Of a stretch of DNA of 64,000 nt, positions 3,710 through 48,788 are shown piece by piece. Below the pieces are notes generated by a model. It ran no database searches. It worked only from the letters and a program-made list of their open reading frames with translations, and was not told where the DNA came from. The position numbers were made by a program, and so were the translations under genes. The stretch is taken from NCBI RefSeq assembly GCF_000517625.1, contig NZ_CP007055.1, positions 1,302,001 through 1,366,000 of the forward strand. The letters run 5' to 3'. The DNA comes from Halostagnicola larsenii XH-48. GTDB taxonomy: Archaea > Halobacteriota > Halobacteria > Halobacteriales > Natrialbaceae. Within the stretch, counting starts at the first letter, position 1, and every line of letters begins with the position of its first letter.

Positions 3710-3730
3710 CCTCCAGACCGCACACAACGC

Positions 3731-3759
3731 TCTTAAGCGGGGTGCGTCACGCGCTTCTC
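3731..3759 (+). promoter_or_regulatory. Late promoter of terS
   Basis: TATA-like TCTTAAG (3731-3737), then CGTCAC (3745-3750) exactly 9 nt before the ATG at 3760. Identical site at 40811-40839. Member of the late-promoter set described under findings. Confidence 0.75.
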
Positions 3760-4311
3760 ATGACCGAACTCACATCTATCGACGGCGTCGGCCCGGCGAT
3801 AGCGGAGCAACTCGAGGCGGCTGGCTTCGAGACCGCCGACGACGTCCTCTCTTCGACCGTCGACGAGCTGGCCGACGTCCACATGATCGGGGAGTCCTCC
3901 GCCGAGTCGATCCTCGAGGGGGACGACGACGGCACCCGTGGCCGGCCTTCGAAGCTCGAGGACCACTGGGACGACATCATGGACGCGGCCAAAGTCGGCA
4001 TGTCGAAGAAAGGAATCGCTCGGACTGTCGGCATCGACGAGTCCACGCTTCACGACTGGGAAAACAAGGACGCCAAATTTTCCGAGTCGCTCAAACGCGC
4101 GCGAGCTGTTGGCGAGCGGCGACTCATCACGTCCGGCCTCTACGACGAGGACGTCGACACCGGGATGGCGCGGTTCCTCCTCGAGCGGTCGTATCTGTAC
4201 GTCAAGACGGAGAAACAGGAGGTCGACCTCACCGAAGAGCGCGAACTCAGCTTCTCTGATGAGGAACGCCAGAAACTCGCGGGGGCCTTCGAGGGCAACC
4301 CAGAGACATGA
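3760..4311 (+). CDS. terS: Terminase small subunit
   Basis: 183 residues. Residues 5-40 form a helix-hairpin-helix (SIDGVGPAIAEQLEAAGF), an unusual front domain; residues 62-125 contain a helix-turn-helix (MSKKGIARTVGIDESTLHDWE) followed by helices, as in DNA-recognition domains of small terminases. It would recognise the packaging site and load the large subunit that overlaps it by 4 nt. The ATG at 3760 is chosen over the GTG at 3742 because the latter lies inside the promoter element. Identification rests on fold pattern and position, not on a strong family motif. Confidence 0.82.
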   Translation: MTELTSIDGVGPAIAEQLEAAGFETADDVLSSTVDELADVHMIGESSAESILEGDDDGTRGRPSKLEDHWDDIMDAAKVGMSKKGIARTVGIDESTLHDWENKDAKFSESLKRARAVGERRLITSGLYDEDVDTGMARFLLERSYLYVKTEKQEVDLTEERELSFSDEERQKLAGAFEGNPET

Positions 4312-5906
4312 GCACGCAGCTGGCGGCCGACCTGGACGACGAGATCCTCGAGGCGATCGAGAACTATCCGCTCGAGCACCCGACGACGACGTCGATCAAG
4401 TGCTTCGACTACAGCCTCCCGCCGGGCGAACACCTCAAGCGCGTCTACAACGCCCTCTACAAAGCCGTCCGACCGGAGTTTCCCTACGCGCCGACTCGAC
4501 TTGCTGCCTTGCTCCCTCGAGGGTCGGGAAAGTCCGACGGCGTCGGTGTCGTGTTTCCGACATGGCTGATTCTCAACCTGCCGTCCCTTCGCGTCGCGAT
4601 CGTCTCGAAGACGGCCGACCTCGCAGCCGAGCGAACCGAGAAGGCAGTCGAACGCATCGAACACTGGGCACCAGCCGCTGGCGTCGAGATCGCCGATAGC
4701 GCCCGGACGCAACTGACCACGGCGTCGAACAACCACAAGGAGCCCTCGATCGCGCCGTACGGGCTCGAGTCCCAGCTGACCGGCAAGCACTTCGACGTCA
4801 TCGTCTACGACGATATCGCGGACTGGGACAACCAGCGCACCGATACCCAGCGCCGCAACGTTCGCAATCACTTCCAGGACTACGAGAAGAACCTCCCGGA
4901 CAACGACAGCGGCCTCGAGCAGGGACCAGTCCAGGCGGTTATCGGGACCAGAAAACATCCTGCGGATGTCTACGCGACGGAGATCCTCGACTCCGCGCGC
5001 TGGGACGTCATGATCCACAAGGCGATCCACGATGCCGACTGGGACGTCGTCGAGAACCGCGACTGGAAGGTCCGCGGCGAGGATGGGAAGGTCTACGACG
5101 ACGTCGCCGATCTGCCGGCGGGCATCTCCATCGCACCGAACGGCGTCATCCCCGACGAGGAGATCCGAGTCATCTGGCCGGAGCAGCGACCTCCAGAGGC
5201 AGTCTTGTACGATCTCGTGGACGGAGATGAGTCGGTCGCCATCTGGAGGCGCGAAAATCAGCAGGATCCTGGCGCGCTCTCGGGCGAGGTGTTCAAGTCG
5301 GACTGGCTGATCTATAACGACGAGCTCCCGCGAACGCCGGATCGGTATCGCTGGTTCGGCGGGATGGATATCGGCGTCGTCGACGACCTGCAGAAAGCCG
5401 CCGAGAACGACACTGACTACTCGGCGCTGGCGATCGTCGGCGCGCATCCCTCCGGAGACGAGGCTTACCTCCCGCTCCTCGATCGCGCCCGTGGCATGTC
5501 CGTGAAGGCAAACGCCGACTGGGCGCATGACCTCCTCGAGGGGTTCGCAAAAGCGTACGGCATCGAATTCGACCAGATTCTCGTCGAGGCGAACAAAAGC
5601 CCAGGCGTCGCCCAACGCCTTCGCGATAACTCCACGTTCCCCGTCCAGCCGATCGAGTCCAGCGGAAGCAAAGAGGGCCGGATCCACGACCTCGCTGCGA
5701 AGTTCGAATCTGGAGAACTCCAGATCGTCGGCGATCCATCTGGGGAGTGCTCGCCCGATCCGACGTCCGACCTCAAGTGGGAGGACTTCGAGACCGAGGA
5801 GTGGCTGCAGTTCCCGAATGCGGCTCACGACGACATGCTCGACGGCGTCGAGATGGCGATGCAAGCCGCCGGCGACGGGGCCTGGAACGTCGGTGTTGGC
5901 TGGTAA
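4308..5906 (+). CDS. terL: Terminase large subunit
   Basis: 532 residues. ATPase domain: Walker A PRGSGKS (70-76), Walker B VIVYDD (164-169). RNase H-like nuclease domain: first aspartate in GGMDIG (D354), glutamate in VEANK (E428), and the final aspartates in HDDMLDG (508-509). This is the motor and nuclease that cuts viral concatemers and pumps DNA into the prohead. Starts in the ATGA overlap with terS. One silent difference from copy B (G5591 versus A42671). Confidence 0.96.
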   Translation: MSTQLAADLDDEILEAIENYPLEHPTTTSIKCFDYSLPPGEHLKRVYNALYKAVRPEFPYAPTRLAALLPRGSGKSDGVGVVFPTWLILNLPSLRVAIVSKTADLAAERTEKAVERIEHWAPAAGVEIADSARTQLTTASNNHKEPSIAPYGLESQLTGKHFDVIVYDDIADWDNQRTDTQRRNVRNHFQDYEKNLPDNDSGLEQGPVQAVIGTRKHPADVYATEILDSARWDVMIHKAIHDADWDVVENRDWKVRGEDGKVYDDVADLPAGISIAPNGVIPDEEIRVIWPEQRPPEAVLYDLVDGDESVAIWRRENQQDPGALSGEVFKSDWLIYNDELPRTPDRYRWFGGMDIGVVDDLQKAAENDTDYSALAIVGAHPSGDEAYLPLLDRARGMSVKANADWAHDLLEGFAKAYGIEFDQILVEANKSPGVAQRLRDNSTFPVQPIESSGSKEGRIHDLAAKFESGELQIVGDPSGECSPDPTSDLKWEDFETEEWLQFPNAAHDDMLDGVEMAMQAAGDGAWNVGVGW

Positions 5907-5907
5907 A

Positions 5908-5939
5908 GGTTTAAGAACACCCCCCGTCCGGCGTCTGCC
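5908..5939 (+). promoter_or_regulatory. Late promoter variant of a membrane-protein gene
   Basis: TTTAAG (5910-5915) and CGTCCG (5925-5930) at the same distance, 9 nt, from the ATG at 5940. Diverged in the last two bases from the common CGTCAC. Identical site at 42988-43019. Confidence 0.6.
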
Positions 5940-6143
5940 ATGGTAAGTCACGAAAAGGCAAATAGCGTTACATTGGGGGCAATGTCAATGACTATATCGT
6001 GCTGTGTAGCTGCTTATCTTGGATTCCAGTTTGAATGGTTGACTTTTGCCACCTTGGCAGTTACTCACCTCATCTCCCACGCCGCCTGGCTCTGCTACGA
6101 GCTCCGGTTCAACAAACCCGATCCTGAGTTAACTGACTGGTGA
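5940..6143 (+). CDS. Two-span membrane protein
   Basis: 67 residues with hydrophobic spans at about 10-28 and 32-54 and short polar ends. The gene is less GC-rich than terL and the following genes, and uses AT-rich codons, which suggests recent acquisition. It has its own late-type promoter. Size and topology resemble small virus membrane proteins, including holins, but no family is recognised. Confidence 0.8.
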   Translation: MVSHEKANSVTLGAMSMTISCCVAAYLGFQFEWLTFATLAVTHLISHAAWLCYELRFNKPDPELTDW

Positions 6144-6145
6144 AG

Positions 6146-6176
6146 GTTTAAGTAGGGAATCCGTCACGCCGCAGGT
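6146..6176 (+). promoter_or_regulatory. Late promoter of the HhH protein gene
   Basis: TTTAAG (6147-6152), CGTCAC (6162-6167), then 9 nt to ATG 6177. Identical site at 43226-43256. Confidence 0.75.
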
Positions 6177-6410
6177 ATGGCTGACCTGCACGACCAGCTA
6201 ACGGAGATTCGGGGCGTCGGCGACGCAACGGCCAAAGAAATTCTGGGGACGATCGATACCGACAGTGGCGACACGAGTCAGGCTCGCGATCTCCTCCAGG
6301 AGGCGCTCGAGCACTTCGACGCCTCCGGCGGGATGGATCCCACAGCCCAACAGGGGAGGGATCGGGTGGAGAAAGCCCTCGCGATGCTCGAGGTGAGCAG
6401 CGATGAGTGA
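6177..6410 (+). CDS. Helix-hairpin-helix small protein
   Basis: 77 residues. LTEIRGVGDATAKEIL (residues 8-23) is a helix-hairpin-helix with the GVG turn, like the N-terminal segment of the terminase small subunit; the rest is helical and acidic. It could bind DNA non-specifically during packaging or head assembly. First gene of a run of overlapping small genes between terL and the portal; its end overlaps the next start by 8 nt. Confidence 0.85.
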   Translation: MADLHDQLTEIRGVGDATAKEILGTIDTDSGDTSQARDLLQEALEHFDASGGMDPTAQQGRDRVEKALAMLEVSSDE

Positions 6411-6711
6411 AAGCGAACCCGCCGACGGTGAGAACAGCGGGGAGGGCACACCGATCAAGACAATCGATCCCGAACTGGAGCCAGAACTGGTCGGCTACCA
6501 CTCAGCGGTCAAGTCTGATTCGTGTCAGAACTTCAAGTCCGACACTGGAATGGTGGGTGACGTCGAGAAGTGTAAGAACGAGCCAACCCATACAATGGTT
6601 CTCTATTCGGGGAAATATCACAAGATCGCCGTATGCGACGACTGTGGGGATCCCGGAGAGGTGGCTGACGATCGAAAGTGGTCGGGCCGGGGGACGATGT
6701 ATGCCGAGTGA
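6403..6711 (+). CDS. Cysteine-containing small protein
   Basis: 102 residues with an acidic N-terminal tail and a C-terminal half holding CQNF, EKCKN and CDDCGDPG, probably a zinc site formed by four cysteines plus His residues (about 41-83). No known family. It overlaps both neighbours, so it belongs to the same operon as the helix-hairpin-helix gene. Confidence 0.8.
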   Translation: MSESEPADGENSGEGTPIKTIDPELEPELVGYHSAVKSDSCQNFKSDTGMVGDVEKCKNEPTHTMVLYSGKYHKIAVCDDCGDPGEVADDRKWSGRGTMYAE

Positions 6712-7234
6712 CGACTACACCAACCCGCATGATCCCGAGGGGTGCCGGGCAGTCATCCCGCTGTCGGACGGCATCCGGATCATCCTCGCCGACGGCACTG
6801 TCGCCCACCTCCAGGTCACGACTGACGACGGCGACGAGCTCACCGAGATCACGGGCCACCCCAGCGGCGGTGGCGTCTTCGGTGGGATCGATCACGATAC
6901 TCGCGTCGAGATCGGGATCATCTCGGACCACGAGGCGGCACAACATCCGATGGTCCAGGAAGCGCTCGAGGACCTCGGATTCTGGGGCGAGGTCGAGGAC
7001 GACAAGGACGAACTCCTCGGGTACGTCTACTACAGCCCAGCCGAGGAGGACGACCGAAGCCGCATGGTGTGCGTCGACTGCGAGCCCTCGACCGAGCTTC
7101 CCGAAGACATGGAACGGGCGAACGTCCGCGATAACGGGTCGTACGGTGACGTCGTCCCATATCAGGAGTGTGCCGAGTGCGGCGAGGTCATGCGACCAGA
7201 TCCGGACCCTCTCGAGGTGAACGACGATGACTGA
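6701..7234 (+). CDS. Hypothetical protein with C-terminal CxxC pairs
   Basis: 177 residues, ATG at 6701 overlapping the previous gene by 11 nt. The first 125 residues look like a beta-rich domain (GIRIILADGTVAHLQVTTD; GVFGGIDHDTRVEIGI). The C-terminal part has CVDC and CAEC pairs (about 126-165), a zinc-ribbon-like end. A longer frame exists upstream but only from another reading frame of the preceding gene. Function unknown; the location suggests a role in late expression or head assembly. Confidence 0.8.
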   Translation: MPSDDYTNPHDPEGCRAVIPLSDGIRIILADGTVAHLQVTTDDGDELTEITGHPSGGGVFGGIDHDTRVEIGIISDHEAAQHPMVQEALEDLGFWGEVEDDKDELLGYVYYSPAEEDDRSRMVCVDCEPSTELPEDMERANVRDNGSYGDVVPYQECAECGEVMRPDPDPLEVNDDD

Positions 7235-7427
7235 CATCGCTCTCTCGTTCGTCGAACTCGCGGGGATCATCGGCGCTGCGGTCGCCCTCGCGGCCACCGA
7301 TGCAGCTGCACTGTCCCGGCTTGCGATCACGGTGCTCGCGAAGAAACTGGGCGTCAAACCGATGGAGATCTACCAGTTCAGCGCAGCGACGTCCGACCAA
7401 GAATCCCCAGAGGACGGGGAGGGATGA
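7227..7427 (+). CDS. Small membrane-associated protein
   Basis: 66 residues. Residues 4-40 are hydrophobic and alanine-rich (FVELAGIIGAAVALAATDAA), one probable membrane span, followed by a short amphipathic segment and an acidic tail. Overlaps both neighbours by 8 and 4 nt. Function not recognised. Confidence 0.8.
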   Translation: MTDIALSFVELAGIIGAAVALAATDAAALSRLAITVLAKKLGVKPMEIYQFSAATSDQESPEDGEG

Positions 7428-7624
7428 TCGACTGGAGCAAGTGGGCGCGGCGCTTCCCGTTCAGCCTCGACGTCAAGCGCTGCGGGGAGTGTGGCGGCGT
7501 GATGATGACCGAGACGGTTCACGACAAGCACACACGCGACGGCACGAACCCGAAAGGCGTCGAGGCGGACGTCTGCCAGGACTGCGGCCACGCCGAACAC
7601 AAGGACCCGGTACCGGGCACCTAA
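7424..7624 (+). CDS. Small zinc-finger protein before the portal
   Basis: 66 residues with CGECGG (20-25) and CQDCGH (51-56): two CxxC knuckles separated by 26 residues, a zinc ribbon. Last gene of the small-gene run; the portal promoter follows directly. Function unknown. Confidence 0.85.
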   Translation: MIDWSKWARRFPFSLDVKRCGECGGVMMTETVHDKHTRDGTNPKGVEADVCQDCGHAEHKDPVPGT

Positions 7625-7628
7625 ACCC

Positions 7629-7657
7629 TTTTAACTGACTTGCGTCACCCCGTCGGT
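7629..7657 (+). promoter_or_regulatory. Late promoter of the portal gene
   Basis: TTTTAA (7629-7634), CGTCAC (7643-7648), 9 nt to ATG 7658. Identical site at 44709-44737. Confidence 0.75.
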
Positions 7658-9646
7658 ATGTCAACCGACCCTGTCGAGCGACCACTCGTCGACGACGAGG
7701 TGCAGTCGGGAGTCAAGGACTACCTGAGCCGCATCCTCGAGCGCGCCACGCCGTCGTCGTGGGTCGCAGGCGGCACAAGCCGACCTAACAAATTCTTTCA
7801 GACCCGTCCCCGGACATACAAGGAACTCAAGCGCCGTGAGAAGATCTACCTGAACGGCGGCCCGATCACCGAGTTCATCGACACGCGGGCGCTGATGACC
7901 TACGGCACGGGCGTCGACTTCGAGAGCAGCTCGCCGGTCACCGACGACCAGGGTCGCACGGTCGACGAGTGGCTCACCGAACAGTTCGGCGACACGCTCG
8001 AGCTGACGATGATCGACGCTGGCATCCAGAGCTACTGGGCGGGCGACGCCTGGCCGGAGATCGTCGAGACGCGCGCCGGCGAGTTCTCTCATCTCGAGCT
8101 GATCGACCCGACGACGATGGACGTCGACTGGAACGACTACGGCGAGATCACAACCCTCCGGCAGATCATCAAGGGGCCACGCGGGAAGCCGAAATCCCAG
8201 CCCGTTGATATCGACAACGTCGGCCACTTTACGTTCAAGGACTCCTCGGGCGGCCCACTCGGCGACTCGCTGGTCGAGCAGAACCTGGATGAGATCAACC
8301 GCTACGTTTCGAACCAGGAGCAGCGAGCCAACGCGATCAAGCTGCACGGATCGCCGAAATACGACGTCTCCGTCGGGAGCGAGGGCCAGTCCATCCCGGA
8401 CAAGGTGATGAGGCGCATCAATCGCAAGTTCCGCCCGGAGCGCGTCGACGAGGAAACGGCCTGGACGCACGGCGGCGACCTCGAGATCAACGCCCTTGAG
8501 TCACCGGGCATGGGCGACGGCATGAAGCAGATCACCGAGACGGACATCTCGCTGCTCGCCGGCTCCTTTGGAATCCCGCTCGAGTGGACCAACTTCGGCA
8601 GCGCCGGCCTCGGTGATGGCTCGCCCGCAGAGTCGCGGGAGCGGAAGTTCGAACGCCAGGCGCGGACTGAGCAGACCCGTCGGGCAAACCAGTTCAAGAA
8701 GGAGATCCTCCGCCCGATCCTCCGACGCTACTCACCGTTCCCGGAGGACATCGAGATCAACGTCGTCTTCGGAGACGTCGTCAGCGACCCGACCCAGGTC
8801 ACTGAATGGCTCTCGACGGTCGACTGGGCGTTCCATCGCGACGAGATCCGGGAAATGGTCGGCCACGCCGCCTGGGACGAAAGCGACAGTCGTGAAGCGC
8901 CGCCCGAGCTCGCCGACGACGCCGGTGGCGATGGTGGCGGGATGGGGTTGTTCAGCGACGGCGATCGCGACCGGGGGCACGGTACGGGAAATCGTAACTG
9001 CGGCCGAGCGCTGTTCCACGACTCGGTCAGCGACGACGACCTGACCCAGGAGGAACTCGTCTGGCGGGACGTCGTCGAGAAGGTGCTCTGGAGTGACGAC
9101 TCCTCGAGGACGCTCTTCGAGTTCAACGCCGACGACCTCCCCGACTTCGTCACGGCGCGCCTCGAGGACGCCATCCCGGAGGCGATCAACGGCTCATCGC
9201 TGCAGACACTCGACGGCGCGCAGATCGGCTTCCTCGAGAACGCCCTCCAGGACGCCCTCGAGTCCGAGTCCCGCGGCTGGTCGCTGAACTCCATCACGGA
9301 CCACATCCAGGACATCCCCGGCGCCGATCTCGATGAGTACGAAGCCCAGCGCATCGGCCGAGACATCACGCAAAACGCAGTGGGGAACGCACGCGAAGAC
9401 GGCTACCGAGAGCGCGACGACTTCGAAGAACTGCGGTTTAAATGGTCAGGAATGCCGTACGATCCCGAGCGGAGCACGGAGGCCTGTCAGTGGATCTCCG
9501 ACCAAATCCCTGAGAACGGCGTCCACATGGATCGGCTAAAAGAACTGATCCAGGAAGCCAACGACCGGTTCATCGATCACGACGCCCGAGAGTGGTCTCC
9601 CCACATTCAGTGTACTCATCAGCCGGTCCGGGTCGTCGGCACCTGA
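7658..9646 (+). CDS. Portal protein fused to a MuF-like minor head protein
   Basis: 662 residues. About 1-430 has the layout of phage portals: an N-terminal clip/stem region, a central WPEIVETRAGEFSHLELIDP segment where the polypeptide wraps around a DPTTM-type motif, and a long helical wing region with SFGIPLEWTNFGSAG. After an acidic glycine-rich linker (about 425-450) residues 545-662 resemble the MuF/gp7 domain (ARED, KWSGMPYD, CQWISD, HIQCTHQPVRV). The portal forms the dodecameric ring through which DNA enters; MuF proteins are ejected or line the head. The ATG at 7658 is used because the upstream TTG falls inside the promoter. Copy B of this gene is broken. Confidence 0.92.
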   Translation: MSTDPVERPLVDDEVQSGVKDYLSRILERATPSSWVAGGTSRPNKFFQTRPRTYKELKRREKIYLNGGPITEFIDTRALMTYGTGVDFESSSPVTDDQGRTVDEWLTEQFGDTLELTMIDAGIQSYWAGDAWPEIVETRAGEFSHLELIDPTTMDVDWNDYGEITTLRQIIKGPRGKPKSQPVDIDNVGHFTFKDSSGGPLGDSLVEQNLDEINRYVSNQEQRANAIKLHGSPKYDVSVGSEGQSIPDKVMRRINRKFRPERVDEETAWTHGGDLEINALESPGMGDGMKQITETDISLLAGSFGIPLEWTNFGSAGLGDGSPAESRERKFERQARTEQTRRANQFKKEILRPILRRYSPFPEDIEINVVFGDVVSDPTQVTEWLSTVDWAFHRDEIREMVGHAAWDESDSREAPPELADDAGGDGGGMGLFSDGDRDRGHGTGNRNCGRALFHDSVSDDDLTQEELVWRDVVEKVLWSDDSSRTLFEFNADDLPDFVTARLEDAIPEAINGSSLQTLDGAQIGFLENALQDALESESRGWSLNSITDHIQDIPGADLDEYEAQRIGRDITQNAVGNAREDGYRERDDFEELRFKWSGMPYDPERSTEACQWISDQIPENGVHMDRLKELIQEANDRFIDHDAREWSPHIQCTHQPVRVVGT

Positions 9647-9649
9647 ACG

Positions 9650-9679
9650 CTTATATCGGGGTTGCGTCACGCCGCAGGT
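9650..9679 (+). promoter_or_regulatory. Late promoter of the protease-scaffold gene
   Basis: TTATAT (9651-9656), CGTCAC (9665-9670), 9 nt to ATG 9680. Identical site at 46732-46761. Confidence 0.75.
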
Positions 9680-11203
9680 ATGCGACGACTCCCACCCGGC
9701 GTTCGATACCTGCAGAACACCGACGACGATGACGTCGAGCACGCCGCTCGGCAGATGGCGGACGGCAACCCGGACATGGACCTGGACATCGCTCGCGAGC
9801 TCTGCGAGGACATGCAGGACCGTGGCGTGCTCGAGGATTACCTCGAGGCCGACCCCGACGAGGATGACGACGACCTCGCCGCCCTTGCGGAGTTCCGAAA
9901 CCCGGGCGATATCCGGCGCATCGAGATGGATGGCGACGGCGTCAAGTACGAGAACGTGATGCTCCTCGCGCCTGGTGCGTGGACCGACGCCGGCTCGAGG
10001 TCGACGGCGATCTACAGTGCCGAAGGCATCCGCGCCTCGGCGGAGAACTGGGTCGATCCTGAGACCGGCGACGACGTCGAGGAAGCCGAGATCAACTTCC
10101 TGCACGGGCCGGCGCTGCACAACGCGGCATCGCTGGGCGATATCGGGACGATCCCAACCGACTCCATCATCGTCGACGACCAGGACCGGATGTACGGCGA
10201 CATCAAGCTCCACGGCGAGTCGCCGGCGAGCCAGGCGTCGATCGAGCTAATGGACGAAGTCCTCGAGAGTGCAGACGATCCGGGAACCCAGACGCCGCCG
10301 GTCGGGCCGAGCGTCGAGATCGTCGGCGAGGAGTCAGAGACGGATCCCGAAACGGGAGCGAGTCGCCTCACGGAGATGTGGTACTCTGGCGTCGGCCTGG
10401 TGTTCGGACCCGCCAGCCGACCGGTCGAGATGGAACAACAGGCGCGGGGCCGCGCGATCGCGATGGCAGAGGACCACGGCTACGATCATACCGGCCTCAT
10501 TCTCCGCAGTGGTGGCGAGAGCGGGCCTCCGGGAAGCGGGGAAACGCCTTTAAACACCTCCCGTCACGCCGGGGATATGGGTAAAAAACAACGACAGCGG
10601 ATCAACAAGCTGCTCGCCGAGATGCAGCAGGTCCTCCAGGAAGGCGGCGACCTCGAACTCATCCAGACGCTGATCGAACAGTACCGACAGTCCGAGGGAG
10701 ACATGGAGGCTCCGGCATCCGAGTTCCTCGCGTGGGTTGGCGAGAACGCCGACGTCGATCCCGAAGAGATCCAGGACAGCCTCGAGAAGTTCGTCGAGGA
10801 CGCCGGCGCCGATGACCTCGAGGAAGCTGCCGTCCAGGGCCTCGAGGAGTGGGTCATGGAGAACATGGCCGAAGAACCAGAGGGCGATGGTGATGGCGAC
10901 GAAAACGGTGACGAAAACGGCGACGGCATGGGTCAGGAAGAGCTTCGCGAGGCCGTCGACACGATCGGCAAGTTCACCAGCGAACTCGAGTCGGTCAAGG
11001 AGATGCTCTCGGAGTACAAAGGTGACGTCGACGAGACCGTCGAGGAGCTCGAGGACGAAATCGAGGAGAAAGAACGCCGACTCTCGAAGCTCGAAGACCA
11101 GCCTGTCCGTCAGGCCCGCGAGCATCAGAACGGCGAGGACTTCTACAGTGAGGATGGCGACAGTGGCGGTTCGGGCGAGCACGAAGACGTCATGCTGACG
11201 TAG
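9680..11203 (+). CDS. Prohead protease fused to scaffold protein
   Basis: 507 residues. Residues 85-260 read as a prohead maturation protease: VMLLAPGAWTDAG, then FLHGPALHNAASLGDIGTI with His142 or His147 as candidate catalytic histidine, a GDIKL strand, and GPSVEI with Ser211 as candidate nucleophile. Residues 300-507 are charged, helical and coiled-coil (EELEDEIEEKERRLSKLE), typical of scaffolds. The protease would cleave the scaffold and capsid after assembly. A late promoter and an in-frame ATG at 10577 lie between the two halves. The catalytic residues are assigned by pattern only. Confidence 0.87.
   Translation: MRRLPPGVRYLQNTDDDDVEHAARQMADGNPDMDLDIARELCEDMQDRGVLEDYLEADPDEDDDDLAALAEFRNPGDIRRIEMDGDGVKYENVMLLAPGAWTDAGSRSTAIYSAEGIRASAENWVDPETGDDVEEAEINFLHGPALHNAASLGDIGTIPTDSIIVDDQDRMYGDIKLHGESPASQASIELMDEVLESADDPGTQTPPVGPSVEIVGEESETDPETGASRLTEMWYSGVGLVFGPASRPVEMEQQARGRAIAMAEDHGYDHTGLILRSGGESGPPGSGETPLNTSRHAGDMGKKQRQRINKLLAEMQQVLQEGGDLELIQTLIEQYRQSEGDMEAPASEFLAWVGENADVDPEEIQDSLEKFVEDAGADDLEEAAVQGLEEWVMENMAEEPEGDGDGDENGDENGDGMGQEELREAVDTIGKFTSELESVKEMLSEYKGDVDETVEELEDEIEEKERRLSKLEDQPVRQAREHQNGEDFYSEDGDSGGSGEHEDVMLT
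10549..10576 (+). promoter_or_regulatory. Internal late promoter for the scaffold
   Basis: TTTAAA (10549-10554), CGTCAC (10562-10567), 9 nt to an in-frame ATG at 10577, all inside the protease-scaffold coding sequence. Identical site at 47631-47658. Confidence 0.7.
10577..11203 (+). CDS. Separately initiated scaffold protein (nested gene)
   Basis: 208 residues starting MGKKQRQRINK, in frame with and sharing the stop of the 507-residue protein. Its start has the complete late-promoter geometry of the other structural genes. The product is all-helical and acidic with a C-terminal coiled coil, matching an internal scaffold. The arrangement copies the lambda C/Nu3 pair, where a protease-scaffold fusion and a free scaffold share a C-terminus. 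Expression is inferred from the promoter, not shown. Confidence 0.62.
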   Translation: MGKKQRQRINKLLAEMQQVLQEGGDLELIQTLIEQYRQSEGDMEAPASEFLAWVGENADVDPEEIQDSLEKFVEDAGADDLEEAAVQGLEEWVMENMAEEPEGDGDGDENGDENGDGMGQEELREAVDTIGKFTSELESVKEMLSEYKGDVDETVEELEDEIEEKERRLSKLEDQPVRQAREHQNGEDFYSEDGDSGGSGEHEDVMLT

Positions 11204-11245
11204 ACATCGGCGTCTATTCCACGGCTGTTTCTCAACGGAGAAAAT

Positions 11246-11275
11246 GTTATAAGAGGGGTGCGTCACGCCGGGAGT
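11246..11275 (+). promoter_or_regulatory. Late promoter of the capsid genes
   Basis: TTATAAG (11247-11253), CGTCAC (11261-11266), 9 nt to ATG 11276. Serves the decoration and major capsid genes. Identical site at 48328-48357. Confidence 0.78.
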
Positions 11276-11704
11276 ATGGTGTTTAGAGACTACGAACTCC
11301 CCGTGGCGCTCAGTCCTGGGCGGCAGTACTCCGCCCACGCCTACGTCGCGGAAGTTGCTATCAAACAAGGCCAACTCGTCAAGGCCGGCACTGATGATGA
11401 CGAGGTGACTCCGTCGGATACCGACGGCGAGCCCGTCACTGGCTTCGCCGCCTACAGCGCGGCGGCTGGCGATACTATTCTCGTCCTCGAGGGCGGCGGG
11501 CGTGCTCGAGCAACCAGTGGAACTGGCGACGTGACCTCCGGCGATCTCATCGCGAGTGGCGGCGGGAGTGGTGAGAACGGAGAGGTACAGACCGCGTCGG
11601 CTGGCGACTACGTCGTCGGGCGGGCGTTCAGAGACGACAGCGGCGACGGTGGCGACGCCCCGATCCAGATCGAACACATCGGCGTCGCAGAGGAGAGTGC
11701 ATAA
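11276..11704 (+). CDS. Capsid decoration/stabilisation protein
   Basis: 142 residues, almost all beta strand, with the pattern VAEVAIKQGQLVKAG, GEPVTGFAAYSAAAGDTILVLEGG, GDVTSGDLIASGG and GDYVVGRAF. This resembles the DUF2190 group of small beta-barrel proteins encoded next to major capsid genes in many tailed phages and taken to be head-decoration proteins. It lies immediately before the major capsid gene, 2 nt apart. The glycine-rich, acidic loop is specific to halophiles. Confidence 0.78.
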   Translation: MVFRDYELPVALSPGRQYSAHAYVAEVAIKQGQLVKAGTDDDEVTPSDTDGEPVTGFAAYSAAAGDTILVLEGGGRARATSGTGDVTSGDLIASGGGSGENGEVQTASAGDYVVGRAFRDDSGDGGDAPIQIEHIGVAEESA

Positions 11705-11706
11705 CG

Positions 11707-12969
11707 ATGGTGTCACACTACAAAACGCAACGACAGCTGAAGTCGTACTGGCGACAGCCCGGCAACCCCCGACTCAAGGGGCTGCTACTCGCAGCGCTGG
11801 ACAACACCGGTTTCTCCGCATCCGACGTCGGTCGGGCGTGGATCACCAACGCGGACGAACGGCAGCGACACCTGCAGAGTGTCGACAACACGCGTCACTT
11901 GGCTGCACCCGTCTCGCAGGGCTACTCGCCCGCCGCGCACGACGGCGAACTCGGCAACACGCACGAAGAGAGCGTCGCCCGGACGCTGGCCCGCAAGGAG
12001 TTCAACGAGGACGACCAGGAGCGGTTCCTCTCGGGCGACGCGACGATGGACAAGGATCAGTACATCCAGCGCGCACTGCTGAACGACAGCGTCACCGAGC
12101 TGGACGTCCTCTTCCGCGAGGAACTCGAGACGACGATCATCCAGGGCGCACAGCCACGGAAGATCTTCCGCGACGCGGCGTTCATCCACAACGCCACCAA
12201 GCGCAAGGGAGACATCCCGCGGGTCACTGACGAGAGCCACGCGGACGTCATCGCGCAGGGCGCGGAGATCGAGACCGGACAGGACGGCTTCGACACGGTC
12301 AGCTTCGACTGCCAAAAGGTCGCTCGAGGCTTCGAGATCTCCGACGAGATCATCAACGAGTCCGAACCGGACGTCGTCGAGCAGCTCGCTCGCGAGGCCG
12401 GCGCGGCAGTCGAGAATACGATCAACCGCTTCGGTCTCGTCAACCTCGTCGACGGCGCTGGACAGTCCTTCGACGCTGATGTCGGCGGGACGACCGACGC
12501 GTCTGCAGTCCAGGCGCTCAACGGCGGGGCGACCGAGGTCGACATGCAGGACTTCGGCGAGGCCAACGCGGCGATCGTTCACCCACGGTTCGAGAAGGCG
12601 ATCTTCGACGACACGAACGTCGTCTACGCCAACCGTGGCGGATCGACCGAGCCGCTGCAGGACCGACAGATGGGGTCCATCATGGGGATGGAGCGCTGGA
12701 AGGGGTCGCACGGCACCTACAACGGAGCCGACGACACGAAGACCCTCAGTCCCGATGGCTCCTGGAACTACCAGGATACGGACGACATCGGCGCGGTGGC
12801 CTACAATCGAGATCTGTTCGCGCTCGTCCTCTGGGACGACATGGATCTCGTCACGAAGGACTGGGAGGACCCGATCCGCGATCTCCAGGGATCGAACGTG
12901 AGGTCTTATGTTGACGCGGTCTGGCGGCAGGAAGACGGCGGCGCGACGGTCACGCACTCGACGGCGTAG
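11707..12969 (+). CDS. Major capsid protein, HK97 fold
   Basis: 420 residues. The N-terminal 95 residues are helical and charged and may be removed at maturation. The body has the usual HK97-type order: an E-loop region (DAAFIHNATKRKGDIPRVTDE), a spine helix (EPDVVEQLAREAGAAVENTI), the P-domain sheet and an A-domain with AAIVHPRFEKAIFDD and DDIGAVAYNRDLFALVLWDDMDL. These subunits build the icosahedral head. Assignment rests on size, fold pattern and position after protease, scaffold and decoration genes. Intact here; frameshifted in copy B. Confidence 0.92.
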   Translation: MVSHYKTQRQLKSYWRQPGNPRLKGLLLAALDNTGFSASDVGRAWITNADERQRHLQSVDNTRHLAAPVSQGYSPAAHDGELGNTHEESVARTLARKEFNEDDQERFLSGDATMDKDQYIQRALLNDSVTELDVLFREELETTIIQGAQPRKIFRDAAFIHNATKRKGDIPRVTDESHADVIAQGAEIETGQDGFDTVSFDCQKVARGFEISDEIINESEPDVVEQLAREAGAAVENTINRFGLVNLVDGAGQSFDADVGGTTDASAVQALNGGATEVDMQDFGEANAAIVHPRFEKAIFDDTNVVYANRGGSTEPLQDRQMGSIMGMERWKGSHGTYNGADDTKTLSPDGSWNYQDTDDIGAVAYNRDLFALVLWDDMDLVTKDWEDPIRDLQGSNVRSYVDAVWRQEDGGATVTHSTA

Positions 12970-13102
12970 GTGATCGCGGCGATCTCGGTTTTCTTCTCGA
13001 GCGAGGGAAACAGTTTTACTGGGGAGGTGTCCGGACAGACCATGCGTCAGTCAAGCGAAGATAACCACATAACTTATTGTCAGTCTATCAGTGGAGTTTC
13101 GC

Positions 13103-13990
13103 ATGGATCTAACACGTCGGGCGGTGCTTGCCGTGTCCTCGGCGATGGGCCTGACGGCATTAGCGGGGTGCTCTTCGGAAAGCGACGCGGACGACGGGCC
13201 GCCAACCGAGTCAACCAGCAACGAAACGGAGGACGCAGCAGTGACTAAACGCATCGTCCTTGGGGATGTTGAGAATGACGAAATCACCAATATCGACGCT
13301 GACTGGTATATCGAGGATGGTAAGTTGGTCCTCGAGGTTCCACAATCTGGCGAGCACGAGATGCGAGACGTGGACCTGACGGGGCTTTCATCGGTGGGTG
13401 CAGAGGAAGAGAATCTCAAAGACCCTGTGACGGGGGACAACGCGACAACGACCTACCGAGAGCAGGAGGGCATCCAACCCGAGACGTATACGAGTCGAGC
13501 CCCACCGACGCCGAATAGCGACAGTGGCCTTGTCTCGAGAGATTATCAGTCCGCAGATGGTCCACAACTCATCACATCGTCTAACGTCAACCACTTGGTT
13601 GAGCCGGGGACGACCGAGTATACCTTCACCAACACAAGTTACGAGAGCGTTTTGCACGAAAGTATTTACTACCCATTTGTGGGTAATGCAGATGCCGGTC
13701 CTGCATATCTTGCATTTGGCGGGATTATATCAAATGATACAGACGGCGAGAGTGTCTTCGTCCAATTGGACCGTGATCCTGGATCGCAGGGGCTCGGAAC
13801 GCTCGAAATCGAGATAACAGCCAATTCTGGAACCGATTTCATGACCCCGTTTATCCCACTCACATTAGAGGATTATGACGATGGGGAGTGGAACGAGAAC
13901 GATTTGGGGTGGGTCCGCGCTCAGGTTAGAGTTAGTGGAGGGACCGGCCACCTGCACCGACTGTCCGGGATCCAAGTGTGGGGGTATTGA
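13103..13990 (+). CDS. Twin-arginine signal lipoprotein
   Basis: 295 residues. The start MDLTRRAVLA carries the twin arginine (5-6), a short hydrophobic core and the lipobox LAGC with Cys23, the haloarchaeal Tat-lipoprotein pattern; an acidic Ser/Thr linker follows. The C-terminal 150 residues look like a beta sandwich (YLAFGGII, SVFVQLDRDP, GTLEIEITAN, VRAQVRVSGG). It should sit outside the cell membrane of infected cells. Possible roles include superinfection exclusion or cell-surface change; none is shown. ATG 13103 is preferred over GTG 13091 because the Tat motif follows it. Gln in copy A is Glu in copy B (50846). Confidence 0.85.
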   Translation: MDLTRRAVLAVSSAMGLTALAGCSSESDADDGPPTESTSNETEDAAVTKRIVLGDVENDEITNIDADWYIEDGKLVLEVPQSGEHEMRDVDLTGLSSVGAEEENLKDPVTGDNATTTYREQEGIQPETYTSRAPPTPNSDSGLVSRDYQSADGPQLITSSNVNHLVEPGTTEYTFTNTSYESVLHESIYYPFVGNADAGPAYLAFGGIISNDTDGESVFVQLDRDPGSQGLGTLEIEITANSGTDFMTPFIPLTLEDYDDGEWNENDLGWVRAQVRVSGGTGHLHRLSGIQVWGY

Positions 13991-13992
13991 GA

Positions 13993-14850
13993 ATGGTGAA
14001 AATAGGATTGCTCGCCGACACTCATATCGCGGATAGTCGGCGGACGGAGAACGGAGTAAGCAAATCAAATGATGCGGTCAGCAGACTAAATTCCGAGAAC
14101 GTGGACTGGAACGTTCATCTCGGAGATATTCGGCCACTCGGTCCAACAACCTCTGACATCAACTGGGGCAACTGGGCAACAGATAACAAATATTACAAAA
14201 GTGACTTTGAGGTGGCTCAAAATCAAGTCCTTAGCAACCTCAACGGTGACTTGAGAATCATCGCACGCGGTAACCACGATCGACCGCTTGACATCTACCG
14301 TGAGTATTTCCCGCGGGACGAGTATCCACGCTATGGGAGTTTTGAGGAAGATGGAGTTAGGCATGTTTGGCTTGATACCCACCCCTATCAGGGCCATCAT
14401 GAACTCCATCAAGTGGGGGCGATGGTGTCGCCGGACCAAATATCATTCCTGCACCGGTTGATGGACGACGACCCCGATATCCCGACATTCGTCTACGCAC
14501 ACGCCCCACTTGCTGCGTTTGACTATGGCGACCTCTCCGCAGAGGATTGGTACACCGACTACCGAGAGTACTTCTATTGTTCGAATGCGCCACACGTTCA
14601 GAATGTCCTCGAGCGCGGAAACGTCGTGATGGTCAATAACGGCCATCTGTTTAATGATGAGGGGCGCGGATCAACGACCGTCAATGGAGTCGAATACGTC
14701 CTATCACGCCATCTCGTCCATAACAGCGATACGAACTATACTGGGGACGTGCGATGGCTCGACATTGACACAACAAACAATGAGGCAACATGTTATTACT
14801 ACGATGTCGGGGCTGACTCGTCGGGGACGATCACGACCGCCACGTGGTAG
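13993..14850 (+). CDS. Calcineurin-like metallophosphoesterase
   Basis: 285 residues with all five metal-site blocks of the family: ADTH (Asp9, His11), HLGD (Asp45), GNHD (Asn94, His95), YAHAP (His170) and NGH (His218). These proteins use two divalent metals to hydrolyse phosphomono- or phosphodiesters, including nucleotides and DNA ends. The substrate is not evident. The gene begins 2 nt after the lipoprotein stop and is likely co-expressed with it. No signal peptide, so it acts in the cytoplasm. DNA here is less GC-rich than the head genes, suggesting transfer. Confidence 0.92.
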   Translation: MVKIGLLADTHIADSRRTENGVSKSNDAVSRLNSENVDWNVHLGDIRPLGPTTSDINWGNWATDNKYYKSDFEVAQNQVLSNLNGDLRIIARGNHDRPLDIYREYFPRDEYPRYGSFEEDGVRHVWLDTHPYQGHHELHQVGAMVSPDQISFLHRLMDDDPDIPTFVYAHAPLAAFDYGDLSAEDWYTDYREYFYCSNAPHVQNVLERGNVVMVNNGHLFNDEGRGSTTVNGVEYVLSRHLVHNSDTNYTGDVRWLDIDTTNNEATCYYYDVGADSSGTITTATW

Positions 14851-14907
14851 ATTCGGAGCTATAATTGCGGCCGAAACTATTATCTTTTCTAACTTTGACA
14901 TGAGGGT

Positions 14908-15114
14908 ATGTCAGACTGGGACAAACTCATTAAAAACCTCGTCGGCGGCTTTGCAGCGGTTGTAATCACAATGGTGGTTATCTTCACGATCGCGAAGATG
15001 GGGGAATCACTCACTTCGCAGGCACCCTCGTGGCAAAGTGCGGCTTTGATTGGAGGTGTCGCTGGCTCTGCGATTACATACTTCTTCAAATCGACTACAG
15101 ACGAGCTCCATTGA
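14908..15114 (+). CDS. Two-span membrane protein, holin-like size
   Basis: 68 residues with spans at about 9-29 (NLVGGFAAVVITMVVIFTIA) and 44-60 (SAALIGGVAGSAITYFF) and a short polar C-terminus. A TTAT-type box precedes the ATG but the CGTCAC element is absent. Size and topology fit small holins or inner-membrane accessory proteins. It faces a second membrane-protein gene on the other strand. Confidence 0.8.
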   Translation: MSDWDKLIKNLVGGFAAVVITMVVIFTIAKMGESLTSQAPSWQSAALIGGVAGSAITYFFKSTTDELH

Positions 15115-15142
15115 TTTAGCTCACTTCTAAGCTGTAGCTACC

Positions 15143-15157
15143 GAATCGGATCGATTC
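15143..15157. terminator. Hairpin between convergent genes
   Basis: GAATCG-GAT-CGATTC, 6-bp stem with a 3-nt loop, between the 68-residue plus-strand gene and the 99-residue minus-strand gene. Position between converging genes suggests a shared terminator. Same sequence at 52226-52240. Confidence 0.35.
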
Positions 15158-15455
15158 AATCACCCTTCTGTTGGTCAACGACTTGTAATTCTTCCCGGAT
15201 CGACTCTTGAACTGCCTTGGGAACAGTTTCCTCAACTGATTCGCGTACTGCATCTTCCAACATCTCATCCTGGTTGTCCGGGTCTATTTTGCGGGACACG
15301 ATAACTAATACGAACAGCATCACCATTCCGGCGACGAAGAATGAGATCTGGGCCGGTAGATCATAGTCAAGAGATGAGGTTACAAACGCACCAGCAAACC
15401 CACCGGCAAGATATTTGACCGACTCTGCGACTGCTTCAATCCAGTTTATGTCCAT
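15156..15455 (-). CDS. Membrane protein with C-terminal coiled coil
   Basis: 99 residues. A first weakly hydrophobic helix (about 13-27) and a strong span (about 36-54, ISFFVAGMVMLFVLVIVSRK) are followed by an acidic helical tail (EDAVRESVEETVPKAVQESI) likely to form a coiled coil. The VGGFAA/LAGGFAGA segments resemble the first span of the facing 68-residue protein, so the two may be related or partner proteins. It is read against the late genes and so needs its own promoter on the minus strand. Function unknown. Confidence 0.8.
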   Translation of the reverse strand: MDINWIEAVAESVKYLAGGFAGAFVTSSLDYDLPAQISFFVAGMVMLFVLVIVSRKIDPDNQDEMLEDAVRESVEETVPKAVQESIREELQVVDQQKGD

Positions 15456-15571
15456 GGAAACGTCTTCGGAAGTTAGAATATAATATTTGTCATAGTGTAC
15501 CGACTTGCGGATTGGTGCCTTTCATAACTCATCATCACTCGAGACAACCGACGAAGACGTCGCCGCGAAGA

Positions 15572-15601
15572 TTTATCAGGGGGTTACGTCACTCGCCGTG
15601 T
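15572..15601 (+). promoter_or_regulatory. Late promoter of the connector genes
   Basis: TTTATC (15572-15577), CGTCAC (15587-15592), 9 nt to ATG 15602. Identical site at 52655-52684. Confidence 0.75.
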
Positions 15602-15841
15602 ATGACCATCTTCAGTAGGCGGGATGAGAGCGCCCGTGCCGTCGACGGCGAGTACCATGCCTTCCGGGAGCGTGCCCGCAAAACAGCGTTCTCCGAAGAG
15701 GAGTTCGACCCGATCGACCAGGAGCGCTACGATCTCGACGACGCCGGGATCGACGGTCGGGACAACCCCGACACGTACGAGGCCTCGGGCCAGTTGGGTG
15801 ACTGGGAAGGAGACAGCCTGCGAAAGGACCCTGATCGGTGA
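15602..15841 (+). CDS. Small acidic protein in the head-tail region
   Basis: 79 residues, MTIFSRRDE start right after the late promoter; the upstream in-frame GTG at 15512 is inside non-coding sequence. Basic at the N-terminus, strongly acidic afterwards, with helical segments (DPIDQERYDL). No family recognised. First gene after the accessory island, so it marks the return to the structural gene block. Confidence 0.8.
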   Translation: MTIFSRRDESARAVDGEYHAFRERARKTAFSEEEFDPIDQERYDLDDAGIDGRDNPDTYEASGQLGDWEGDSLRKDPDR

Positions 15842-15846
15842 TCGTC

Positions 15847-16077
15847 ATGCCAGGTCACACTCTCTTCCCCTCCATAACTCCCGACACCGACGACACTGAC
15901 GACGTCGACCCGGTCGCGAAGCTGGCGGACGCGAACTACCAGACGGCAATCTCGAAGATCACGGCGGGCGACGTCGACGACCTCCTGGACGACCTCGAGG
16001 AAGTCGACGATCGCTCGAGCGTCCAGAACGCGATCGAGGACCGACGCGAGGCACTCGCGGGGCGTGACGATGAGTAG
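15847..16077 (+). CDS. Small acidic head-tail region protein
   Basis: 76 residues. After a Pro-rich start the sequence is helical (PVAKLADANYQTAISKITAGDVDDLLDDLEE, split by acidic turns). The end overlaps the next start by 8 nt. The short LxxAxxxxA helices ending in DRREALAGR suggest a small DNA- or capsid-edge-binding helical bundle; this is inference. Confidence 0.8.
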   Translation: MPGHTLFPSITPDTDDTDDVDPVAKLADANYQTAISKITAGDVDDLLDDLEEVDDRSSVQNAIEDRREALAGRDDE

Positions 16078-16465
16078 TAGCGACGATCTCCCCAGCGTCG
16101 CCGAGGTGGAAGCGCAGTACGGCGCGACCGAGATCCCGAAAGAGCCCGACGATGGCGAAGACAAGAGTCAGGCCGAGCTCCTCATCGAGGCAGCCGACCG
16201 GATGGACCGAGATATCTTCGGCCAGCAGGTGCTCTATACCTCTCGAACGCACGGGAATCGGAAGGATCGTATCATCCTCCTCGCCGCCCACAAGTGGGCG
16301 CTTCGCGAGGGCGAAGCGCAGTCGGAGTCCCAAGCCGGCGGGAGCGTGAGCTACAACACGGTCACGGGCGAGACCCAGGACTCGCTCACGCAGACCAAAT
16401 GGGGGCGCGAGTATCTCGGCTACCTCGAGGACCAACCCAACATCGGCATCTTTTCGACTCGGTAG
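16070..16465 (+). CDS. Head-tail connector candidate
   Basis: 131 residues. The central part is helical (AELLIEAADRMDRDIFGQQVLY; RIILLAAHKWAL) and the C-terminal part is an extended tail (SYNTVTGETQDSLTQTKWGREY). Size, helical core plus flexible tail, and place between capsid and tail-completion genes suit the gp6/gp15 type of adaptor that binds the portal. No diagnostic motif, so the name rests on synteny. Confidence 0.78.
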   Translation: MSSSDDLPSVAEVEAQYGATEIPKEPDDGEDKSQAELLIEAADRMDRDIFGQQVLYTSRTHGNRKDRIILLAAHKWALREGEAQSESQAGGSVSYNTVTGETQDSLTQTKWGREYLGYLEDQPNIGIFSTR

Positions 16466-16491
16466 CGGTCCACGGTTTCTCCGGGGCTACG

Positions 16492-16521
16492 TTTATCACA
16501 GAGTTGCGTCACTCGCCAGCC
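16492..16521 (+). promoter_or_regulatory. Late promoter of the tail-completion genes
   Basis: TTTATC (16492-16497), CGTCAC (16507-16512), 9 nt to ATG 16522. Identical site at 53575-53604. Confidence 0.75.
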
Positions 16522-16968
16522 ATGCTGAACGTGAGTACCAGCTCGACGTCGACGGATGCCGCGGGGAACGTCCGCCGTGGCACGCGCAAAGCGCTGCGGG
16601 ACGCCGCCGATCGCGGCTTCGAAGTCTCGCAGGAACACGTCTCGCATGGCGCGGACTCGTTCCTCGCGAACTCTGGCTACCCGCCGGAGGAACTCGCCGA
16701 TGGCACCTGGGAGTGGGGCTACTCGGCAGGGTACGCCGCCGCTGTCGAGGATGGATCGGAACCACACTGGATCCCAGTCCACGCGATGGACGGCCTCGAG
16801 CGCTGGTCGCGACGCATCCTCGGGGACGAAGGCGCGGCGTGGGCTGTCCGCCACAAGATCGCGAAAGAAGGGACCGAGGCCAACCCGTTCGTGGAACCGG
16901 GAAAGGAAGCACAGGAAGCGTATCTACAAGCGCGCGGTATCAGCGCGTCCGTGGAGCGTGAGTTCTAA
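16522..16968 (+). CDS. HK97 gp10-like tail completion protein
   Basis: 148 residues. The N-terminal helix (RRGTRKALRDAADRGFEVSQ), a middle region with WIPVHAMDGLERW, and the closing ANPFVEPGKEAQEAYL match the HK97 gp10 pattern, where the last segment is a PFL/PFV motif before a final helix. Such proteins sit between connector and tail terminator and complete the neck. TAATG overlap with the next gene. Confidence 0.85.
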   Translation: MLNVSTSSTSTDAAGNVRRGTRKALRDAADRGFEVSQEHVSHGADSFLANSGYPPEELADGTWEWGYSAGYAAAVEDGSEPHWIPVHAMDGLERWSRRILGDEGAAWAVRHKIAKEGTEANPFVEPGKEAQEAYLQARGISASVEREF

Positions 16969-17315
16969 TGCCGCGTGACCGATCCAAATCACGGACCGCG
17001 GAGACTCCTGACGAAGACCCCAGAGAGGAAGACTACGACGGCCTCAGCGAGGAGCAAGCCTTCCAGGTCGGTGTCCTCACGCAGCTCGGCCGCATCGCCA
17101 CCGCCCTCGAGACGATCGCCGATTCGAGTACCGACGCCGGCGAACAGACGTCGGGAACCGTCTCGGATGGAGCCGGGAGAGTGATCTACCAGTGTTCGAG
17201 CTGTGACGAGACGGTCGCCGGCGAGGAGGCGGCGGAGGCCCACGCCACCAACGACCACAACGCACCTGACGACGGGTCGACCTGGACGGCACTCATGGAC
17301 CGGGTGGACGCATGA
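16968..17315 (+). CDS. C2H2-type zinc-finger protein in the tail operon
   Basis: 115 residues. About 1-60 is charged with one helix (EEQAFQVGVLTQLGRIATALETI), then CSSCDETVAGEEAAEAHATNDH (about 77-98): CxxC followed by His-x5-His, a classical C2H2 finger. It lies between two tail-neck genes, an unusual site for a zinc finger; it may organise the neck or be a regulator riding in the operon. Confidence 0.85.
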   Translation: MPRDRSKSRTAETPDEDPREEDYDGLSEEQAFQVGVLTQLGRIATALETIADSSTDAGEQTSGTVSDGAGRVIYQCSSCDETVAGEEAAEAHATNDHNAPDDGSTWTALMDRVDA

Positions 17316-17767
17316 GCTCCAGCCTGGATCCAGTCCAGACGATCGTCGATATCCTCGAGGGGGCTGCCGCGGAGGACTGGGCGAACGCCGGCGGGGAACC
17401 CGATTACATCGAGCGCTACGAGGAGACGGATTTCTCTTCAAAGAAGGCTCGAGACATGCGAGACGCGATCTACGTCCAGCGGCCCGGATCGGACGACTAC
17501 CAGAAACTCGGCGCTGGATACAATACACTCGTCGAGGAACCAATGGTCCGGGCGGAGGTCTGGACGCCGGAGGGATCGGACCCGTGCCTGGAGTACGCCC
17601 ACGACGTCCGTGAGATCATCCGTGGCTACACGGTCGACCTCGAGGACCAAACGCAGTGGACGGATATCGCGCCCGTCGGCGAGGAAGACCTCCGGGGGAG
17701 TGCCCGCGCCCGTGGCGTCGATCACTCCGTGATGGCAATCCAGATCGATCTGACCGGCGCACGGTAG
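17312..17767 (+). CDS. Tail terminator-like protein
   Basis: 151 residues, ATGA overlap with the finger protein. The order helix (PVQTIVDILEGA), strand (AIYVQRPGS), strand (PMVRAEVWTPE), helix (EYAHDVREIIRGY) and final strand (HSVMAIQIDLTGA) matches the gpU-type terminator fold, and the gene directly precedes the tube protein. It would cap the tail tube and join it to the head. Confidence 0.8.
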   Translation: MSSSLDPVQTIVDILEGAAAEDWANAGGEPDYIERYEETDFSSKKARDMRDAIYVQRPGSDDYQKLGAGYNTLVEEPMVRAEVWTPEGSDPCLEYAHDVREIIRGYTVDLEDQTQWTDIAPVGEEDLRGSARARGVDHSVMAIQIDLTGAR

Positions 17768-17787
17768 CTCTTCACTCGGGGAAACGG

Positions 17788-17816
17788 TTTTAACGTGGTT
17801 GCGTCACGCCGCAGGT
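17788..17816 (+). promoter_or_regulatory. Late promoter of the tail genes
   Basis: TTTTAA (17788-17793), CGTCAC (17802-17807), 9 nt to ATG 17817. Last late promoter; everything to 23909 follows without another. Identical site at 54871-54899. Confidence 0.76.
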
Positions 17817-33689: not shown

Positions 33690-33700
33690 ACCCGGTGACA

Positions 33701-34580: not shown

Positions 34581-34629
34581 CTGTCATAACTCAGAGACAA
34601 ACGGGACAGAACCCCCCGAAATCACCCCT

Positions 34630-40789: not shown

Positions 40790-40839
40790 CCTCCAGACCG
40801 CACACAACGCTCTTAAGCGGGGTGCGTCACGCGCTTCTC

Positions 40840-48786: not shown

Positions 48787-48788
48787 CG

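Follow-up and report, generated by a model that had tools for sequence, protein, structure and literature searches.

Two near-identical tandem copies of a siphovirus-like provirus lie in the chromosome of the haloarchaeon Halostagnicola larsenii XH-48, and a 64,000-nt stretch of this region was analysed (NZ_CP007055.1, positions 1,302,001 to 1,366,000; hereafter the window, whose numbering is used for positions). In each copy, the hexamer CGTCAC occupies positions -15 to -10 relative to nine ATG codons in the block of virion genes, as part of a rigid promoter-like module. No further CGTCAC module turned up in the other viruses and haloarchaeal genomes sampled. The element is likely read by a virus-encoded factor; we infer the transcription start, the late timing, and the existence, identity and activating role of this factor. 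The CGTCAC box bears on the question of late-gene timing in tailed archaeal viruses. An RNA-seq study of the halovirus HFTV1 found tight temporal control, apparently with no alternative polymerase or antitermination (PMC12542753). The CGTCAC box looks like a private switch that turns on the particle genes, a known type of control in an unusual build. It is short, rigid and private, related viruses have late-promoter signatures of different sequence in its place, and the timing question thereby becomes testable with a reporter and a few candidate genes.

Searched for alone, CGTCAC was not enriched in the window (91 occurrences, compared with 78 ± 8 expected). The fixed-position pattern CGTCACN9ATG gave 18 matches against 0.96 expected, all on the forward strand. 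These 18 sites were not treated as independent, because the window consists of two near-identical copies; the sample is nine sites, each present twice. A motif search before ATG codons was run as an unbiased scan of every hexamer at every offset upstream of 411 candidate ATGs, and CGTCAC at -15 to -10 ranked first (9 seen, 0.29 expected, Poisson P = 3e-11, uncorrected). When the start set was rotated at random, a count of 9 was reached by any hexamer at any offset in 1 of 300 rotations. In the offset profile of CGTCAC from -60 to +40, no offset other than -15 had more than two occurrences.

The sites belong to the late genes, a class assigned here from gene content (virion genes), which includes the terminase subunits, portal, protease-scaffold protein, capsid and tape-measure proteins. 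CGTCAC was absent from early and accessory starts, and allowing one mismatch gave none of these genes a convincing site. A preliminary description of this DNA had placed CGTCAC 9 nt before nine late ATGs and CGTCCG at the same distance before the ATG at 5940; all of these coordinates are exact, and its confinement of the motif to the late block was upheld. The fixed-position scan and the absence from early and accessory starts also support its proposal of a late-class-specific element tied to the start codon. Its term "virus-wide" is an overstatement, as the motif marks eight late transcription units and one internal start.

Eight of the nine CGTCAC sites are intergenic, and all promoter modules are on the forward strand. 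The first (3726–3759, CGTCAC at 3745–3750) precedes the small terminase gene (3760–4311). Each of the next three occupies a 33-nt intergenic gap: 6143–6176 (CGTCAC at 6162–6167) before an open reading frame (ORF) at 6177–6410, 7624–7657 (7643–7648) before the portal gene (7658–9646), and 9646–9679 (9665–9670) before the protease-scaffold gene (9680–11203). The fifth (10543–10576, CGTCAC at 10562–10567) lies within the protease-scaffold ORF. The sixth (11242–11275, CGTCAC at 11261–11266) precedes a capsid-stabilising-like gene (11276) and the major capsid gene (11707), and the seventh (15568–15601, CGTCAC at 15587–15592) precedes ORF 15602–15841, the first late unit past an accessory island. 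The eighth (16488–16521, CGTCAC at 16507–16512) is found before the neck/tail-completion gene (16522–16968), and the ninth (17783–17816, CGTCAC at 17802–17807) before ORF 17817–18281, upstream of the tape-measure gene (18936–20117) and tail genes. All nine recur unchanged on the forward strand of the second copy (40825–54902; ATGs at 40840, 43257, 44738, 46762, 47659, 48358, 52685, 53605 and 54900).

The shared module consists of a B recognition element (BRE) with AA at -34/-33, a TATA box at -30 to -24, CGTCAC at -15 to -10, C at -8, a pyrimidine at -1, and the ATG. Across the nine sites, A-34 is conserved in 8, A-33 in 9 and T-17 in 8, positions -29 to -26 are T-rich, and CGTCAC, C-8 and the pyrimidine at -1 are found in 9 of 9. 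Spacers vary between sites, and A-33 of the BRE, CGTCAC, C-8 and the pyrimidine at -1 hold register with the ATG. In Haloferax volcanii, 72% of protein-coding transcripts are leaderless, with a proposed BRE (CGAAA), TATA box (TTWT) and WW -10 element (PMC4983044). At mapped starts of the halovirus HF2, the TATA box begins at -26 and the BRE lies at -33 to -37 (PMC8707807). The BRE and TATA distances in the provirus are those of a haloarchaeal leaderless promoter with its start at the ATG. The AT-rich (WW) -10 element is absent, as -11/-10 is AC in all nine sites. Apart from this AC, the geometry predicts leaderless transcripts starting at the ATG, in support of the leaderless reading in the preliminary description.

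Four intergenic gaps (before 5940, 6177, 7658 and 9680) are exactly 33 nt, which places the stop codon of each preceding gene directly against the following BRE. When starts were filtered strictly for AA at -34/-33 (BRE) and a TATA box, 12 remained in the unit, comprising nine late starts (eight with CGTCAC, and 5940 with CGTCCG), the accessory starts 13042 and 14908, and one minus-strand ORF. The latter three have the BRE/TATA geometry and lack the motif. The start at 16522 missed the filter solely through a T at -34. The module before ORF 5940–6143 (5906–5939, CGTCCG at 5925–5930) has the same BRE/TATA geometry and 4 of the 6 letters, and is probably a degenerate member of the set. The accessory island (13.0–15.5 kb), with lower GC content than the late block in which it lies, has its own promoters without CGTCAC; it contains a lipoprotein-like ORF, a phosphoesterase-like ORF and two small membrane-like ORFs.

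The internal start of the protease-scaffold gene

The preliminary description had counted nine late genes behind the motif. Eight of these ATGs are indeed the starts of late units, whereas the ATG at 10577 is an in-frame internal start, codon 300 (Met300) of the 507-aa ORF 9680–11203. The predicted nested scaffold gene (10577–11203, forward strand) encodes 208 aa in frame from Met300. This site is a complete promoter module although it is located within coding sequence, and its retention there supports the promoter reading of CGTCAC. Its TATA box is built on the sole TTA codon of the 507-codon gene; across 19 genes, TTA accounts for 7 of 375 leucine codons.

The 507-aa protein aligns with HFTV1 gp17, which is annotated as a P2 gpO-like scaffolding/protease, and with the corresponding proteins of HRTV-4, HRTV-29 and BLv36 (26–29% identity). 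Met300 is invariant in the alignment with these four homologs. In the aligned homologs from IMG/VR, Met occupies this column in all but one, whose aligned row misses the region. The internal in-frame Met lies at 10577 in the window, at 7982 in the related sequence L009, 15422 in L011, 16880 in L012 and 27060 in L010 (our labels). In HRTV-29, AACGCTAAGGC is found at -33 to -23 of the internal scaffold ATG; in HFTV1 the internal ATG is preceded by GACGCTAAGGT, and the late signature at the equal offset is AACGCTTAGGC. The internal-start signature recurs in HRTV-29-like contigs, and more distant contigs have TA-containing remnants only. The DNA likeness among these relatives may come in part from protein conservation.

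These sequences are most simply read as an internal late promoter from which the scaffold domain would be produced on its own. Given the nested start, this head gene, annotated as a single protein, is predicted to yield a second product. In phage lambda, C and Nu3 are nested protease-scaffold genes, and the scaffold arises from an in-frame start within the protease gene. The provirus resembles this system in that a start of this kind is predicted to give its scaffold, a likeness that we offer as a lead. Unlike lambda, it has a complete promoter-like module at the internal start, and the nested product would therefore come from its own transcript.

Late signatures in other viruses and genomes

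The genome searches sampled 391 genomes of the class and 125 of the family. The extended pattern TGCGTCACN9ATG occurs 13 times on one strand of this genome, compared with at most three times in any other of the 391 haloarchaeal genomes. Outside the window sites, the host genome contains 12 further CGTCACN9ATG matches, compared with 7 for a reversed control; all 12 lack a TATA box, and most are without a long ORF as well. The preliminary description had suggested extending the motif search to related haloviruses, where CGTCACN9ATG proved not to be enriched. The 370 kb of related viral contigs contained 2 matches, which is no excess, HCTV-2, HHTV-1, BJ1, HSTV-1, PhiCh1 and HF2 had 0–1 matches each, and the pattern was absent from the 47.6 kb of HF2 sequence examined. 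A 14-base version of the element matched 112 viral-contig stretches, with one match per contig among the matches listed, which is expected at about chance level for so large a collection. No close relatives by portal or capsid protein were found in the family genomes, genome contigs or viral contigs, and the TerL relatives L027 and L028 (57–58%) lack the CGTCAC module. The fixed-position matches in PhiCh1 (ATGGACGCGGT) were taken for repeats in coding sequence and not for promoters.

The portal protein is 28–32% identical to those of HFTV1, HRTV-4, HRTV-29 and BLv36. HRTV-4, HRTV-29, HFTV1 and many IMG/VR contigs contain ATAGCCCAAACGCTTAGGC at -42 to -23 before portal, head and tail-tube genes (L009, L011 and L012; contigs including L209, L211, L244, L246, L250 and L252). 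Several relatives have a fixed-position late signature, AAACGCTTAGGC, at -34 to -23, with variants before the conserved internal scaffold start, and HFTV1 has AAACGCTTAGG-type promoters. The word "motif" does not appear in the main text of the HFTV1 transcriptome paper. Like these Haloferuviridae (HRTV-4, HRTV-29, HFTV1), the provirus has leaderless-type geometry with the BRE A at -33/-32 of the ATG, compact intergenic modules, and a group-specific signature before virion genes, variants of which precede the internal scaffold start. The Haloferuviridae signature lies upstream (ATAGCCCAAACGCTTAGGC, -42 to -23), with a degenerate TATA box, and their late promoters have mostly W (A or T) at -11/-10. 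In contrast, the provirus has a near-consensus TATA box and its signature downstream of it. A signature of the AAACGCTTAGGC type at -34 to -23 was not found in the window sites. They share A-34/A-33, and often ACG, with the Haloferuviridae, but have a TTTAA-type TATA box and no TTAGGC.

In HSTV-1 (L205), several virion genes are preceded by GCACGCTTTT at about -35. As a side observation, GCACGCTTT(T) forms a fixed-position signature at about -35 before its ATGs at 6428, 14420, 15717, 16908 and 19113. These viruses generally seem to combine a shared leaderless geometry with a virus-specific late signature, and the provirus version is the one located downstream of the TATA box. Separately, six genes on a 58,468-bp plasmid of Natronosalvus rutilus (L173, NZ_CP100358.1) have AACAGGCT directly before the ATG. 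These were rejected as instances of the same element, as they look leadered, with a TATA box near -42 and a GAGGT ribosome-binding-like sequence.

Among known systems, the class II (late) intergenic repeats of HF2 are confined to the virion-gene arm, have an AT-rich TATA element and were shown to be promoters, and the authors proposed virus-encoded factors for timing; the repeats are 29 bp and contain three AT motifs separated by C residues (PMC8707807). The provirus sites likewise form a repeated late promoter sequence class with a TATA box, limited to virion-gene starts. CGTCAC between TATA and start has not been described for HF2, and the description of the HF2 repeat sets the two apart. 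The CGTCAC promoters are thus a new form of a class-specific late promoter kind already known from HF2. The unusual feature is the location of the element between TATA and start, where host promoters have the AT-rich -10 element.

Sulfolobus rudiviruses such as SIRV2 have a conserved early-gene regulatory sequence, which is associated with the Aca8 regulator (PMC11065993). There too a virus-specific sequence around BRE/TATA marks one temporal class, but it is a different sequence, marking early genes in crenarchaeal hosts. Phage P2, with its Ogr-dependent promoters, and phage T4 each have many late promoters with one short site in common, which a small phage factor recognises. This parallel is a lead, and these promoters, unlike those of the provirus, use bacterial RNA polymerase, other positions and other proteins.

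Possible readers of the element

Because the register with the start is exact despite differing spacers, and because the host WW is replaced by GC-rich DNA, we prefer the account in which a virus-encoded protein would read CGTCAC and permit late initiation, to which we give an even chance. Each late unit would have a compact leaderless promoter of about 34 bp, in which BRE, TATA box and CGTCAC are followed by a start on the A of the ATG or beside it. With such a start, CGTCAC would lie at about -15 to -10 of the transcript start, the normal position of WW. The reader would be a small DNA-binding protein of the virus, produced early, which would allow host RNA polymerase with TBP and TFB to initiate jointly at every late unit, and the promoter within the protease-scaffold gene would yield the scaffold domain as a product of its own. 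The early and accessory promoters lack the element, and the relatives share the geometry with another signature. Two candidate late regulators are encoded on the forward strand before the first late promoter. The first, a 74-aa winged-helix protein (2769–2993), is TrmB/MarR-like, with scores below curated cut-offs, and precedes the late block. The second, a 63-aa zinc-ribbon protein (3518–3709), matches DUF7563 above the cut-off and is the last gene before the first late promoter. Their regulatory roles are putative.

Several points weigh against this account. HF2 late promoters are active in Hfx. volcanii without other virus genes (PMC8707807), and a repeated motif alone is therefore no proof of a viral factor. 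Most archaeal viral regulators characterised so far act as repressors (PMC5569661), and a site placed between TATA and start over a good core promoter would fit a repressor as well. A single provirus lineage is known to carry the motif, which therefore comes without a phylogenetic footprint. Three sites have an identical 18-mer (CGTCACGCCGCAGGTATG), and recent copying may therefore explain some of the likeness.

The main rival, possible if unlikely, is that CGTCAC is the operator of a virus-encoded repressor, which would sit between TATA and start and silence late genes in the lysogen and in early infection. The late promoters would then be intrinsically good, and their BRE and TATA box are indeed near consensus. 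The element resides in an integrated provirus, and most characterised archaeal viral regulators repress by occluding promoters, such as SSV1 F55, which acts over the transcription start site and BRE (PMC5569661). Candidate repressors, read from sequence, are the ribbon-helix-helix-like ORFs at 29895–30074, 29606–29788 (minus) and 33471–33690 (minus), although no Pfam family was found for the one that was scanned. The symmetry expected of a dimeric repressor operator is lacking. The preliminary description had reported a 9-bp near-palindrome in most sites, but the full GCGTCACGC is present in only 4 of 9, and mirrored positions are unequally conserved (C-8 9/9 and its partner G-16 6/9; C-15 9/9 and its partner G-9 6/9). 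The palindrome is therefore a weak argument. Operators need no single-base register with the start, which all nine sites keep. Early promoters showed no site that could serve autoregulation, and early/late order would not arise from a repressor acting on all late promoters and leaving along with the lysogenic one.

A quite improbable alternative is a core-promoter variant read by the host, for example by a TFB or TBP paralogue, which would set promoter strength or start choice, the repetition reflecting a copied good module. The activity of the HF2 late repeats without other virus genes (PMC8707807) favors it, and the shared 18-mer is compatible with copying. The host genome, however, does not use the motif, its 12 other matches lacking a TATA box. 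None of the other sampled haloarchaeal genomes approaches the 13 extended matches on one strand, and the accessory and early promoters of the provirus lack the motif. Chance, a shared coding constraint or an mRNA-leader (ribosome binding) element is highly improbable: CGTCAC alone is no commoner than expected, but the fixed-position counts are far above expectation, eight of the nine sites are intergenic, a TATA box at -30 to -24 from the ATG leaves no space for a leader holding -15 to -10, and the motif is unlike the archaeal Shine–Dalgarno sequence.

Returning to activation by a virus-encoded protein, a more far-reaching version, which we hold to be doubtful, is that the provirus swaps the host AT-rich -10 element for a GC-rich box usable only by a virus-encoded initiation factor, so that the late class would be set at DNA opening by the host RNA polymerase. 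Specificity would then have been swapped between related haloviruses (upstream AAACGCTTAGGC or downstream CGTCAC), with the geometry and the internal scaffold promoter kept.

The tandem provirus copies

The repeat unit is about 37.08 kb (self-offset 37,080–37,083). In contig positions, copy 1 spans 1299959–1337055 and copy 2 spans 1337039–1374112, and the two overlap by 17 bp at their junction (window 35039–35055); this overlap may be an attachment core. Neither the window nor the flanks read yielded a tRNA gene. Small indels distinguish the copies at 46.2–46.8 kb and 48.8 kb in the second copy. In this copy the portal gene is frameshifted and the capsid gene is split near its start, with decay and assembly error indistinguishable. 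A repeated GTGCACGGTGCAC at 34600–35130 adjoins the copy junction, near the minus-strand ribbon-helix-helix-like ORF 33471–33690, and these repeats are possibly partition, origin or integration sites. On the minus strand at 26613–26909, an ORF resembles a ribonucleotide reductase fragment by the look of its protein sequence.

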